Assembly (NCBI GenBank): GCA_019235885.1
Contig: JAFAKB010000080.1
Span: 1-64,000, forward strand
Direction of reading: 5' to 3'
Source: Candidatus Eremiobacterota bacterium
GTDB taxonomy: Bacteria; Vulcanimicrobiota; Vulcanimicrobiia; Vulcanimicrobiales; Vulcanimicrobiaceae
Length of the DNA stretch: 64,000 nucleotides
Below are positions 25,050 through 29,762 of the stretch, piece after piece (the stretch's first letter is position 1; each line of letters begins with the position of its first letter). Under the pieces are notes generated by a model. It saw only the letters and a list, made by a program, of their open reading frames with translations, was not told the DNA's origin and did no database searches. The translations under genes were made by a program, and so were the position numbers.

Positions 25050-25097
25050 TCGCGTCGAGATTGTCGGAACTCGTCGAATGCCACGGCAAGCCCGGTG

Positions 25098-25127
25098 TTG
25101 ACTTTGTCGCGACCGGCGTGATAGGCT
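25098..25127 (+). promoter_or_regulatory. Sigma70-type promoter of the leader/phosphoesterase unit
   Basis: TTGACT (25098-25103), an 18-base spacer and TAGGCT (25122-25127). Transcription would begin near 25134, just before a perfect 7-bp hairpin (CTCGCGC, 25137-25143, with 25148-25154) and the leader ORF. Confidence 0.6.
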
Positions 25128-25174
25128 CGGAACCTACTCGCGCATGAGCGCGAGGCGAGAAAGGAGAGAACGCA

Positions 25175-25279
25175 TTGAACCGAGTTCAGCCGATTTCCGT
25201 CCCCACTACCCGTCGCACGCGGGCGATGCTCGTCGTTTCGCGTTCCAACTTCGCATTCTCGGAGGCCGCATCACGCTGA
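25175..25279 (+). CDS. 34-codon leader peptide
   Basis: A short ORF with a TTG start behind a strong AAAGGAGAG (25160-25168). The product begins MNRVQPISVPTTRRTRAML and ends SEAASR; it is basic, with several Arg and Ser and no signal peptide. Its last codons contain CGGAGGCCGCATC (25260-25272), which can pair with the 5' half of the terminator-like hairpin downstream. The layout promoter, leader ORF, alternative pairings, terminator, gene is that of translation-coupled attenuation. The peptide may have no function other than being translated. The amino acid or drug sensed is unknown; no codon run stands out except Arg. Confidence 0.6.
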   Translation: MNRVQPISVPTTRRTRAMLVVSRSNFAFSEAASR

Positions 25280-25305
25280 CCTGACCGCTTCGGCACGTCC
25301 GCCTT

Positions 25306-25336
25306 GATGAAGCCTCCGCACCAACGGAGGTTTTTT
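25306..25336 (+). terminator. Intrinsic terminator/attenuator that also carries the next gene's Shine-Dalgarno
   Basis: CCTCCG (25313-25318), loop CACCAA, CGGAGG (25325-25330) and six T (25331-25336). The 5' arm with its upstream flank (25306-25318) can instead pair with 25260-25272 inside the leader ORF, 11 of 13 positions. The 3' arm GGAGG is also the ribosome-binding site for the GTG at 25338, so hairpin formation would block both transcription and translation. Confidence 0.75.
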
Positions 25337-25337
25337 C

Positions 25338-25538
25338 GTGTCTTACACCCAGCAGGTCTTCGCCGTGCTGGTCAACGACCGGCATCGAGCGATCGCCGAC
25401 GATCTCGCGCAGGCGCGCCGTTTCGCGCTGCGCCGCCGCGCGGCGGCCGTCGTCTACGCCCTCGCCAAAGCCGTCACCGTGGTCGCAGTCGTGCTCGACG
25501 ACGAGCCGCTGCGGCGCGCCGAAGAGCGGGCACGATAA
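25338..25538 (+). CDS. Small basic protein of unknown function downstream of the attenuator
   Basis: 66 residues from GTG 25338, with GGAGG 7 bases upstream inside the terminator stem. Sequence begins MSYTQQVFAVLVNDRHRAI; the middle is rich in Arg and Ala, followed by a moderately hydrophobic strand (TVVAVVLDDEPL). No family is recognised. It ends 4 bases before the phosphoesterase start, so the two are probably co-translated. The good ribosome site and regulated position support it as a real gene, but codon bias alone does not separate it from noise. Confidence 0.5.
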   Translation: MSYTQQVFAVLVNDRHRAIADDLAQARRFALRRRAAAVVYALAKAVTVVAVVLDDEPLRRAEERAR

Positions 25539-25542
25539 CGGC

Positions 25543-26055
25543 GTGACGAAGGTCGGCGTCGTCAGCGACACCCACTTCCCGCGCTTCGGGCGCGCCTTGC
25601 CGCGCGCGCTGGAGCGCGGGCTGCGGCGTGCCGGCGTCGCGCGCATCCTGCACCTCGGCGATCTGACCGATCTGCTCGCGGTCCCGCTGTTCGAAGCGAT
25701 CGCGCCGTTCGACGCGGTCGCGGGCAACAACGACGGTCCGGAGATTCGCGCGCGCTTCGGCCGGCGCAAGGTCGTGCGGATCGAGGACGTCCGCGTCGGA
25801 ATGGTTCACGGGGACGGCAAGCGCGGGACGAGCGCGTCGCGCGCCCTCGCCGCGTTCGACCAAGGAGAGGTCGACGTCGTGCTGTTCGGCCACAGCCACC
25901 GGCCGTTCACCGCCCGCGAGGCCGGCGTCCTGATCGGCAACCCCGGCTCGCCGACCGACAAGCGCCTCAACCCGCTGTTCTCGTACGCGATCTTGACCGT
26001 CGACGGCGCGAAGGCGCGCTTCGGCTTGAAGTTTTACCTGTCCCGAGCGGTGTAG
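25543..26055 (+). CDS. YfcE/MJ0936-type metallophosphoesterase
   Basis: A 170-residue calcineurin-like phosphoesterase. All metal-binding motifs are visible: VSDTHF near residue 7, HLGDLTD near 40, AGNNDG near 62, MVHGDG near 85 and VVLFGHSHRP near 108, ending with LIGNPGSPTDKR. Members hydrolyse phosphodiesters such as 2',3'-cAMP or bis-pNPP in vitro; the physiological substrate is usually unknown. The start is GTG 25543. It lies downstream of the attenuator unit, so its expression may be controlled by the leader. Confidence 0.93.
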   Translation: MTKVGVVSDTHFPRFGRALPRALERGLRRAGVARILHLGDLTDLLAVPLFEAIAPFDAVAGNNDGPEIRARFGRRKVVRIEDVRVGMVHGDGKRGTSASRALAAFDQGEVDVVLFGHSHRPFTAREAGVLIGNPGSPTDKRLNPLFSYAILTVDGAKARFGLKFYLSRAV

Positions 26056-26394
26056 CGCCAGCCTGGCAACTTCTAGGCTTCCTCGCGCGCCCCGTGGCGT
26101 GCCATCATCGGCGCGGGAACGTCGGTCGACGTCTCACCGAGGCGTCCCACACCCGGGCCGGCGTTCCCTCCCGCACCGAAGCTCGGCGCCCTTGCGGCGC
26201 TGGCTTCTTCGTTTTTCTTTCGGCCAATTCTGGCCGCCGAGGCCCTCGAGCGGCCGGCTCTTTCATGCCGGAACGGCATCGGTTCGTAGTAATTAAGCAT
26301 CATAGCTACTTGTAGCGAGGAGTAGTTAGAGCAGGCGGTAGCATCCCTTGGTCACGCGTCGCGGCTTGCGGCGCGTGCCCAGGAGGAAAACCCC
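26056..26394 (+). other. Gene-free leader region before the 54-residue peptide
   Basis: No gene is seen in these 339 bases. The first part is GC-rich with short dyads: GCGCC/GGCGC followed by TTCTTCGTTTTTCTTT around 26190-26222 may end the phosphoesterase transcript. At 26287-26340 the composition turns AT-rich (GTAGTAATTAAGCATCATAG), which is unusual here and is the likely promoter region, though no clean -35/-10 pair is found. A 9-bp hairpin with one G-U pair (26353-26361 with 26369-26377) sits just upstream of AGGAGG at 26381. Confidence 0.5.
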
Positions 26395-26559
26395 ATGCTC
26401 ACGACCCTCATCGTCGCAATCTCGCTCGCCGTCTCGGCGAGCGTCACAGCCCCGACCTCGGCGCCGGCCGCTTCAGCCTCAGCGACGGTCACGACGTCGG
26501 GCCCGGTGACGACGTCGACCTCGGTGGACGACGTAACCGGCTCGGGACCGCCGGGATAG
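26395..26559 (+). CDS. Small exported Ser/Thr-rich peptide (54 residues)
   Basis: ATG 26395 follows a strong AGGAGG with 8-base spacing. The product starts MLTTLIVAISLAVSASVTAP, a short signal-peptide-like hydrophobic segment with a possible cleavage at VTA. It continues with a Ser/Thr/Ala-rich tail (TVTTSGPVTTSTSVDDVTG) ending GSGPPG. There is no Cys and no known family. The gene has its own long leader with an AT-rich promoter region and a hairpin. It converges with two TPR-LuxR regulators. Exported peptides next to such regulators can be signals, but here that is inference. Confidence 0.6.
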   Translation: MLTTLIVAISLAVSASVTAPTSAPAASASATVTTSGPVTTSTSVDDVTGSGPPG

Positions 26560-26620: not shown

Positions 26621-28186
26621 TCAGCGCAGCGCTTTCACGTCGTCGAGAATGCCGAGTCGCGCGCATTCCGCGACGAGCGAAGCACGGCTGCGCACGCCGA
26701 ACGCCGAAAAGACCGCTCGCGTGTGGTTGTTGATCGTATTGAAGCTGCGGTCGAAACCCGCTGCGATCTCACGCGCCTTCTTGCCGGTGCAAAGCTCACG
26801 AAGAACGCGCCTCTGCGCACGGGTAAGCTGTCCGAGCGGATCGGCGGGGGCATCCCGCTGAAGCGCATCGCGAAGCCATGCCTTCGGTGCGTTGCGAAGC
26901 GCATCCAGCCCGGCCTTGGCATAGCGCTCTTCACCGGTGACGGTGCGCAAGTCGTTCGCCACGAGCGCTGCGCGCAAACGGTAGCCGAGCTGCATGAACG
27001 CGTCGAACGACCGTTCAAGCTCGTCGACTCCACGTGATACATTCCCTTCGGCAACCAAGACTCTTCCGCGTGCATACTGCGCGTACACGTCGAGCCGCCG
27101 GTCGCCTTCAAGTGCGAGCATCTCAGTCCGGCGAGGGCTCGTACGATCGTAGAGCGCCAGAACGCGGCGAGCCGTTTCAACGTTCTCCGGCGGCGCGGCG
27201 ATTGCGTACGCCAGCAGCGCACTCCGGTGGTCGACGTCGAGGTCGACTTGATCGCCGCGCAAGAGCAGCGCGCCGGCAAGCTCCAAATAGCGCTCGGCGG
27301 AGAACCGGTCACCGACGATCGTCGCGACATACCGCGCCATGACGAGTGCCGTGGCATGATGGGCGGTGTCGACGGTGAGCGTCAGGCCTCGTTGTCGTTC
27401 GTCCCAGGCCCGCACGACGTTGCCCTCGAGCAGCGAGAGCCAAGCGAGAAAACCCAGAACGAGGTAGCGCTCGATCCTCGTGTCGTTGGACCACGTGCTC
27501 GCTTCGTACTCACGCCGCACGAGCCGCCCCAAACGAAGATCGATCGTCTCCGCGGCGATGATCGCAAGCGCGTTCAGAATGCGCGCGCGACCCTTGACGT
27601 CCCTGATGTCGGACTCGTTCAGCGCGGCAAGCGCTTCGGTGAATTTGCGCGCCGCAGACGCGTAGTTTTCGCGGCGGGTGTCGATCCAGCCGGCGAGCTG
27701 CAGGAGGCGTGAGCGCGCGTAATCGGCGGCGTGCGGAAGCGCCGCTTCGACGATCGCTTCCGCTTCGTCCACGCGGTCGCTGCTCCAGCGGCTGAGCGCG
27801 CGGTAATAGCCGACCTCGCCGACGTGCTGCGGCGCCGAGCGCTGCGCGAGCGCGGCGGCGTCCTCCAGCATCGCTTCGCCTTCTTCGCGTTGCTCCGTGC
27901 GGGTCAGCGCGGAGCCGAGAAGCATGCGCACCAGCACCGTCTCCTCCGCCCCGTTCACTTCTTTGGACGCACGCTGCAGGATTGGTGCTACCTCTTTCGG
28001 CCGGTCCAGCGTGAGCGCCGCGCGCGCTTGATAGATCGCCGAAAGCACGCGCTCGTCGCGCCGGTCGAGGCGCGCGTTGCGCAGCAAGCGCAGAATCGCT
28101 TCGTACTCGCCCGCCTTATAGAGCTCGTCCGCCTTCTGCAGCACGCCGGGGACGCCGGTCAGGTTCGCGCGCTGCGTGCTTCGCAC
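26621..28186 (-). CDS. TPR-LuxR family transcriptional regulator (downstream copy)
   Basis: A 521-residue regulator with many helical TPR-like repeats over residues 1-430 (for example KADELYKAGEYEAILRLLR and AEAIVEAALPHAADYARSRL) and a C-terminal LuxR helix-turn-helix from about 450: LGQLTRAQRRVLRELCTGKK, AREIAAGFDRSFNTINNHTR, AVFSAFGVRSRASLV. No P-loop or receiver domain is present, so signal input is probably by ligand or protein binding to the repeats. It is a tandem paralogue of the gene at 28200, 13 bases away, and probably in one operon. Base composition is slightly lower in GC than that of its twin, suggesting relaxed or different selection. Confidence 0.87.
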   Translation of the reverse strand: MRSTQRANLTGVPGVLQKADELYKAGEYEAILRLLRNARLDRRDERVLSAIYQARAALTLDRPKEVAPILQRASKEVNGAEETVLVRMLLGSALTRTEQREEGEAMLEDAAALAQRSAPQHVGEVGYYRALSRWSSDRVDEAEAIVEAALPHAADYARSRLLQLAGWIDTRRENYASAARKFTEALAALNESDIRDVKGRARILNALAIIAAETIDLRLGRLVRREYEASTWSNDTRIERYLVLGFLAWLSLLEGNVVRAWDERQRGLTLTVDTAHHATALVMARYVATIVGDRFSAERYLELAGALLLRGDQVDLDVDHRSALLAYAIAAPPENVETARRVLALYDRTSPRRTEMLALEGDRRLDVYAQYARGRVLVAEGNVSRGVDELERSFDAFMQLGYRLRAALVANDLRTVTGEERYAKAGLDALRNAPKAWLRDALQRDAPADPLGQLTRAQRRVLRELCTGKKAREIAAGFDRSFNTINNHTRAVFSAFGVRSRASLVAECARLGILDDVKALR

Positions 28187-28199
28187 GGCCGTATTTCCT

Positions 28200-29762
28200 T
28201 CAGCGCAGGGACTTGATGTCGTCGAGGATGCCCAGCCGCGCGCACTCGGCGACCAGCGCCGCGCGGCTGCGCACGCCGAACGCCGAGAAGATCGCGCGCG
28301 TGTGGTTGTTGATCGTGTTGAAGCTGCGGTCGAAGCCCGCCGCGATCTCGCGCGCCTTCTTGCCCTTGCACAGCTCGGCCAGGACGCGCCGTTCCGCCGG
28401 GGTGAGCTGGCCGAGCGGATCGTCCTCGGTCGTGCGCCGCTCGAGGACCGGCCGCAGCCACGCGTTGGGCGTGTTGCGCAGCGACTCCAGCGCGGCTTGC
28501 GCGTAGCGGCGGTCGCCGGTGACGGCGCGCAAGTCGTTCGCGACGAGCGCGGCCCGCAAACGGTAGGCGAGCTGCGACCACAGCTCCAGCGCCTGCTGCA
28601 GCTCGGCGATGCCGGGCTGCGTGCGTCCTTCGGCCAGCGCGGCTTTGCCGCGCGCGTAGTGCTCCTGCGCGTCGAGCGCGCGGTCGCCCTCGAAGGCCGG
28701 CGCGTCGGTGCGGCGTGGTCGCGTGCGATCGTACAACGCCAACACCTTGCGCGCCGTCTCCCCGTTCGCGGCGGGTACGGCGGCGATGAACGAGAGCATC
28801 GCGATGCGCCGCTCGGCGCCGCTTCCCGAATGATCGTGCAGCAGCAGCGTGCCGGCGAGGTCGAGATAGCGCGACTCGGAGAAGCGGTCGCCGACGACGC
28901 CGGCGAGCTGCGCCGCCCCGATCAGCGCGAGCGCGTGAAAATCGGTCTCGGCGGCGAGCGTGAGCGCGAGCTGCCGCTCGTCCCAGGCGCGCGCGATCTC
29001 ACCTTCGAGCAGCGAGAGCCAGCCCAGATAATCGAGAATGTGCGCGTGCTCGGCGCGCGTGTCGTCGGACCACGTGGTCGTCTCGTACTCACGGCGCACG
29101 AGCCGTCCCAGCCGCAGGTCGATCGTCTCGGCGGCGATGAGCCCGAGCGCGTTCAGGATGCGCGCGCGTGCTTTGACGTCCGCGCTCTTCGACTTGTCGA
29201 GCTCGCCGAGCGCGGCGGTGAACTCGTGCGCGGCGGCGGCGTAGTTTTCGCGGCGAACGTCGATCCGGCCGAGAACCTGCAGCAGGCGCGCGCGCGCGAC
29301 GCCCGCGGCGTGCGGCAGCGCCGCTTCGACGATCTCTTCGGCTTCGCCGAGCCGTTGCGCGCTCAAGCGGCTCGATGCGCGGTGGTAGGCGATCTCGGGG
29401 GCATAGTGCGACGCCGAGCGCTGCGCGAGCGCGGCGACGTCGTCGAGCAGCGCTTCGCCCTGCTCGCGGCGATTCGTACGGGCCAGTGCCGCGCCGAGCA
29501 CCATCCGGGCGGGCACCGTCTCGTCGGTCCCCTTCGCTTCTTTGGCGGCGCGCTCCAGGAACGGCGCGACGGCTTCGGGACGGTCGAGCTCCAGCGCGGC
29601 GCGACCCTGGCAAATTGCTGAGCGCACGCGGTCCTCGCGGCGGTCGAAGCGCGCACCGCCCAACAGGCGCAACGCTCGCTCGTACTCGCCGCCTCGGCAG
29701 GCCGCTTCCGCTTGGTCGAGCGGGCTCGTGACGCTCTGGACGGCTCTGCGCGAACTAGCCAT
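28200..29762 (-). CDS. TPR-LuxR family transcriptional regulator (upstream copy)
   Basis: 520 residues and collinear with the downstream paralogue over its whole length. N-terminal TPR-like helices (QAEAACRGGEYERALRLLG, LLQVLGRIDVRRENYAAAA) lead to a C-terminal LuxR DNA-binding domain (LGQLTPAERRVLAELCKGKK, AREIAAGFDRSFNTINNHTR, AIFSAFGVRSRAALV). The recognition helix is identical in both copies (SFNTINNHTRA), so both should bind the same sites while the sensor parts have diverged. It is the first gene of the pair and is divergent from the DUF1232 gene. Confidence 0.88.
   Translation of the reverse strand: MASSRRAVQSVTSPLDQAEAACRGGEYERALRLLGGARFDRREDRVRSAICQGRAALELDRPEAVAPFLERAAKEAKGTDETVPARMVLGAALARTNRREQGEALLDDVAALAQRSASHYAPEIAYHRASSRLSAQRLGEAEEIVEAALPHAAGVARARLLQVLGRIDVRRENYAAAAHEFTAALGELDKSKSADVKARARILNALGLIAAETIDLRLGRLVRREYETTTWSDDTRAEHAHILDYLGWLSLLEGEIARAWDERQLALTLAAETDFHALALIGAAQLAGVVGDRFSESRYLDLAGTLLLHDHSGSGAERRIAMLSFIAAVPAANGETARKVLALYDRTRPRRTDAPAFEGDRALDAQEHYARGKAALAEGRTQPGIAELQQALELWSQLAYRLRAALVANDLRAVTGDRRYAQAALESLRNTPNAWLRPVLERRTTEDDPLGQLTPAERRVLAELCKGKKAREIAAGFDRSFNTINNHTRAIFSAFGVRSRAALVAECARLGILDDIKSLR

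Follow-up and report, generated by a model that had tools for sequence, protein, structure and literature searches.

A conserved, probably ribosome-mediated transcription attenuator ahead of a small helical protein gene in the Eremiobacterota (WPS-2)

In a 64,000-nucleotide stretch of DNA from Candidatus Eremiobacterota bacterium (contig JAFAKB010000080.1; hereafter, the window), a promoter, a short leader open reading frame (ORF), and two competing RNA hairpins precede the gene for a protein of 66 amino acids. Comparison with related genomes indicates that this arrangement belongs to a real and conserved family of ribosome-mediated attenuators that is apparently undescribed. In our judgment, the arrangement is quite probably a ribosome-mediated transcription attenuator, the likeliest input of which is a general slowdown of the ribosome. 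Most of the leader-peptide attenuators described to date respond to a single amino acid or to an antibiotic, and the genes they control serve biosynthesis or resistance. Among the papers searched, none joins this phylum with transcription attenuation or leader peptides, and a search of Rfam gave no family above the gathering cut-off, either in the whole window or in 25080-25360 with lax filters.

All of the elements lie on the plus strand, and a direct reading of the letters places the promoter, the strong ribosome site, the 34-codon leader, and the terminator hairpin exactly where a sequence-only reading of this DNA had put them. The promoter (25098-25127) has the -35 box TTGACT (25098-25103), an 18-nt spacer, and the -10 box TAGGCT (25122-25127), extended as TGATAGGCT; TTGAC and TGNTANNNT are kept both within and outside the genus. 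The leader ribosome-binding site, AAAGGAGAG (25160-25168), serves a leader peptide ORF (25175-25279) that starts with TTG and stops with the TGA at 25277-25279. Region 2, the 5' side of the antiterminator (25260-25285), overlaps the end of this ORF and its stop codon. Region 3, the 3' side of the antiterminator (25292-25318), pairs with region 2, and its final seven bases are at the same time the 5' arm of the terminator. The intrinsic terminator (regions 3 and 4; 25312-25336) reads GCCTCCG-CACCAA-CGGAGG-TTTTTT, with CCTCCG at 25313-25318, CGGAGG beyond the loop at 25325-25330, and the T-run at 25331-25336. It ends one base 5' of the GTG start of the small protein gene (25338-25538), and the GGAGG in its 3' arm (25326-25330) doubles as the Shine-Dalgarno sequence of that GTG, as had been proposed. 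Simple consensus scanners missed both the promoter and the terminator of the window, so the evidence from this single sequence is weak, and it is the comparison with relatives that decides.

Within the genus, a covariance model located the attenuator, in one copy per genome, in 10 of the 11 genomes, the eleventh being 73% complete; a single-sequence search for the small ORF recovered it in eight of the 11. With few exceptions, the genus keeps TTGAC, the extended -10, the GAAAGGAG of the leader ribosome site (present in nearly all members), the leader frame, GGAGG, the stop codon, AAGCCTCCG, and CGGAGGTTTTTT. The leader stop lies 16 nt 3' of the region 2 GGAGG; in two genomes the frame is shifted, the leader terminates at the second of two close TGA codons, and this distance is 21 nt. 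In the genome G003 (L027, about 1606-1690, reverse complement), the small ORF is shortened to 27 codons and the promoter, leader, and terminator are intact; no YfcE gene was found in this genome, which is 74% complete.

Relatives beyond the genus were reached by way of the upstream dehydrogenase gene, a second covariance model, and profiles of the small protein. The same layout stands at 49 tabulated loci from 22 genera, in two families of the class (phylum Eremiobacterota/WPS-2). All 49 loci have a strong ribosome site (AAGGAGG-like outside the genus), a leader of 24-46 codons, a terminator, and then a related small-protein ORF; wherever a locus was read by eye, a promoter resembling TTGAC/TGNTANNNT could be made out. 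An explicit finder was positive for 27 of 28 newly fetched loci and for none of 498 upstream regions of other ORFs (0/498); its single miss, in G063, has the layout by eye. A control with random windows gave 33 positives in 1880, but true attenuator loci are among those from which the windows were drawn, and for this reason only the 0/498 control was used. Three further matches to the small protein, in G045 (C4:71520), G050 (C52:50214), and G102, which did not display the layout, were left untabulated, and a weak covariance-model match in G020 (L030) was set aside as probably due to chance. A pattern scan of all bacterial genomes returned mostly unrelated terminators; the matches include CALEOJ010000373.1 (candidate division WPS-2) and PLAE01000229.1 (Candidatus Eremiobacterota). 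The failure of the simple scanners would suit the view that the hairpins and the open frame are chance products of GC-rich DNA. That view is already contradicted by the conservation, that is, by 49 loci in 22 genera, by the clean control, and by the covariation described below, and we give it practically no credence.

Two features of the neighborhood of these loci should be mentioned. In most of the distant relatives, a tRNA-Val(GAC) gene stands within a few hundred bases of the attenuator and the small gene and is oriented divergently from them (L227, L228, L229, L238, L212, L256, L257, L259, L260, L262-L273, and L288). In G024 (L230:1354-1452) and G023 (L285:7-105), an SRP RNA gene (RF00169) lies directly 3' of the small ORF on the same strand; as a general neighbor it was rejected, because it occurs in these two genera only.

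The core of the sequence-only reading was that 25260-25272 pairs with 25306-25318 at 11 of 13 positions and competes with the terminator. The pairing exists as claimed and forms the outer part of a longer stem, of 20 pairs, that encloses the leader stop and reaches inward to about 25285/25292. Among 12 aligned sequences from three genera, 96% of the cells of this antiterminator pair, a figure inflated by the fact that the alignment was fitted to the structure. In the same alignment, nine pairs carry two-sided changes, which amount to 16 cells, compared with 3.7 after shuffling (0/500), and sliding the antiterminator partner destroys the pattern. A second clade of unrelated sequence (g44, g12, g9, and g13) also shows compensatory changes, although these are more modest (7 pairs versus 2.4 shuffled, 1/500). 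In this clade, an additional covarying hairpin is seen inside the leader ORF (alignment A10, columns 32-39 with 45-52), in the place expected of an RNA polymerase pause hairpin. Covariation in both pairings had been proposed as a check, and it was found for the antiterminator. The terminator stem is nearly invariant across the sequences; in eight aligned members of the genus both stem and T-run are invariant, and the stem therefore has no covariation to offer.

The energetics point in the same direction. In folding calculations, the antiterminator is more stable than the terminator alone at 49 of 49 loci. Against dinucleotide shuffles, its folding has a mean z of -2.37, with 48 of 49 values negative; the combined z of -16.6 overstates the significance because related genomes are not independent. 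Of the terminator-arm bases, 7.2 pair upstream of the stop, versus 3.1. The leader ORF, the conservation of which had been named as a test, is present at 49/49 loci, and the distance from its stop to the terminator arm is nearly fixed (22-38 nt, 29.6 +/- 4.4 nt). In g7, g50, and g52, the stop follows region 2 at a distance of 30-47 nt, which is beyond full cover by a stop-bound ribosome. The parts, their conservation, the mutually exclusive hairpins, the covariation, and the stop spacing were all computed here, and the covariation and the universal leader ORF support a leader-peptide attenuator with competing hairpins. If there were instead no regulated switch, the leader would be just another small gene, closed by a terminator of its own, and expression of the small ORF would come from a different promoter or from leakage past that terminator. 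The small ORF of distant genera, which stands 3' of the terminator with a ribosome site of its own, would agree with such an arrangement. We nevertheless hold it to be very improbable: an ordinary gene end has no need of a long antiterminator that is conserved and covaries, the leader peptides themselves are not conserved in sequence across genera, and the start codon in the genus directly follows the T-run, with its ribosome site inside the terminator.

A leader-peptide attenuator of this kind may be expected to work as follows. Transcription would start at the promoter, and a ribosome would load on the leader. If translation keeps in step, the ribosome at the stop would sit on region 2 and bar the antiterminator; the terminator would then form, and transcription would end before the small gene. 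With a ribosome stalled in the leader before it gets to region 2, the long 2:3 hairpin would form once region 3 has been transcribed. In other words, the terminator would be blocked, the 66-aa gene (here together with YfcE) would be transcribed, and its GGAGG ribosome site would be left unpaired. This direction of switching in the cell we infer from the RNA. Equilibrium folding of the window RNA yields the antiterminator with no ribosome, or with one stalled upstream of region 2, and the terminator when a ribosome footprint covers the stop. A footprint at the stop leads to the terminator in 42 of 49 folds, the window included, and the calculations thus agree with the proposal that a ribosome at the leader stop would favor termination. 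The full switch, from antiterminator on stalling to terminator at the stop, was reproduced in only 16/49 by equilibrium folding, which does not model a co-transcriptional choice well. The companion proposal, that the absence of a ribosome gives read-through, agrees with the fold of the window, but it is predicted for only about half of the relatives; in about half, the untranslated RNA is predicted to terminate.

Which gene does the attenuator control? The sequence-only reading had named both the small ORF and the downstream YfcE-like phosphoesterase. The first is the conserved partner, with profile matches in 55 of the 149 genomes of the phylum. The second, encoded at 25543-26055 and scoring 83.8 bits against TIGR00040 (cut-off 56.25), would be co-transcribed in the window but lies downstream in only three of the 22 genera (7/10 genomes of the genus, both g19 genomes, and g53). 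In G005, YfcE is found elsewhere, without an attenuator, and in the remaining genera with inspected downstream DNA it does not accompany the small gene. YfcE was rejected as the target because in other lineages it is absent or is located elsewhere without the attenuator, and we regard it as a lineage-specific passenger; the gene order across genomes indicates that the primary target is the small helical protein. The further suggestion that both transcription and translation are switched fits only some of the lineages. The overlap between terminator and ribosome site is seen in g1, g19, and g53 only, whereas the small ORF of the distant genera that were read by eye starts farther downstream of the terminator and has a ribosome site to itself. 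Translational coupling would thus be an extra of certain lineages.

Several other features were noticed beyond the YfcE gene of the window. A terminator-like hairpin at 26183-26203 (plus strand) is the likely end of the operon. Between YfcE and a pair of regulator genes, a small ORF beginning MLTTLIVAISLAV (26395-26559) has a strong ribosome site, and ORF starts resembling it are present in G003 (L027) and G020 (L030). The regulators (26621-28186 and 28200-29762, minus strand) are large tandem paralogs, and their translations, read by eye, end in a LuxR-type helix-turn-helix.

The small protein is rich in arginine, and AlphaFold predicts a single long helix for it (pLDDT 88, pTM 0.44). It has no Pfam or NCBIfam family above cut-off and no convincing relative in the PDB. 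Since the attenuator has a single constant partner, the small gene, and the product of this gene is Arg-rich, it is conceivable that this protein, or another, binds the leader RNA and selects the hairpin, with the leader ORF secondary. Between genera, however, the RNA sequence is almost wholly replaced while the leader ORF, the ribosome site, and the stop spacing persist, which is unlike what is expected of a protein-binding site, and such autoregulation seems to us a slim prospect.

If a ribosome operates the switch, the leader should indicate what is sensed. Conservation of the leader peptide had been proposed as a test, and it holds for translation, stop position, and RNA structure, but not, across genera, for the amino acid sequence. 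In the 12 codons before region 2, no residue is common to all 22 genera. Within the genus, the first half of the leader varies freely, with 82 nonsynonymous versus 16 synonymous codon differences among the pairs compared. Glycine, methionine, and asparagine are enriched in the leaders, which use non-preferred codons (GC3 0.63 versus 0.87 in five genes of the window). As the genera have no conserved leader codon in common and the leaders use non-preferred ones, the most likely signal, we infer, is the progress of the ribosome in general, as it would be affected by translation inhibitors or global starvation. This choice rests on the absence of a pattern, and some leaders do have local runs. A switch specific for an amino acid, with each lineage sensing its own charged tRNA, is an unlikely though not negligible alternative. 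Its candidates would be serine or arginine at VVSRS in the genus, where 9/10 members retain Ser-Arg at 8 and 7 codons ahead of the region 2 GAG and a stall would free region 2, leucine in G028 (LLLL), and serine in G011 (SSSSS); the enrichment of Met, Asn, and Gly would also speak for it. Against it, these two are the only runs of a single codon, nearly all leaders lacking one; no residue is shared by the 22 genera, no biosynthetic gene lies downstream, and the first half of the leader is free to change. Three particular candidates were also rejected. A branched-chain amino acid attenuator was suggested by LVV in the leader, but other genera do not keep LVV, and there is no ilv gene downstream. 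Methionine or serine sensing was considered; the enrichment of Met is strong against simple shuffles but weaker against codon-position shuffles, and many leaders have no Met. Arginine sensing was suggested by the favored CGT/CGA codons, but non-preferred codons are used generally.

As is usual for ribosome-mediated attenuators in general, a translatable leader ORF with a ribosome site lies upstream of an intrinsic terminator (49 loci, 22 genera), and an antiterminator supported by covariation involves the end of this ORF and excludes the terminator. The trp and his attenuators (PMC1183508) likewise have a leader ORF, mutually exclusive 2:3 and 3:4 hairpins, and a stop-bound ribosome that covers region 2. 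Unlike them, the present family has no regulatory codons for a single amino acid and no biosynthetic operon, and a search for a 1:2 hairpin in the genus found no conserved one. Regulatory codons for the amino acid of the product and a downstream synthesis or charging gene, the marks of the trp/his/ilv type, are both lacking. The ermC leaders, as described in PMC4191407 and PMC2965389, also depend on ribosome stalling rather than on the supply of one amino acid, with the downstream ribosome site exposed or hidden. However, ermC controls translation, whereas here transcription would be controlled, the genera share no conserved arrest motif, and the gene that follows is no known resistance gene.

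The closest experimental precedent is bmrB-bmrCD of Bacillus subtilis, in which drugs that target the ribosome favor the antiterminator and read-through is increased by rare codons in the leader (PMC4191407). Both systems have a leader ORF without a dedicated regulatory codon, an antiterminator and a terminator, and non-preferred leader codons (PMC4191407). In bmrB-bmrCD, slowed translation promotes read-through, and by analogy the same may hold here. They differ in that bmrB has 53 codons and its terminator lies inside the ORF (PMC4191407), whereas here the terminator follows the stop by 22-38 nt. Furthermore, bmrB-bmrCD controls a drug transporter, and here the gene encodes a small protein without a family match, for which this analogy would suggest a response to drugs.

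More tentatively, and with clearly less confidence than we place in the attenuator itself, we suggest that this single-copy element may serve throughout the phylum as a sensor of general ribosome slowdown, and that the small helical protein it switches on may act on translation, for example, as a stress factor associated with the ribosome or the SRP. If true, such a sensor would exist in a phylum without a described attenuator. One design has been kept over deep divergence while nearly all of the sequence, the leader peptide included, was replaced, and this family may be seen as a natural experiment on what a translation-coupled switch requires. It also draws attention, in a phylum with little genetics, to a conserved small protein the expression of which apparently depends on ribosome progress.
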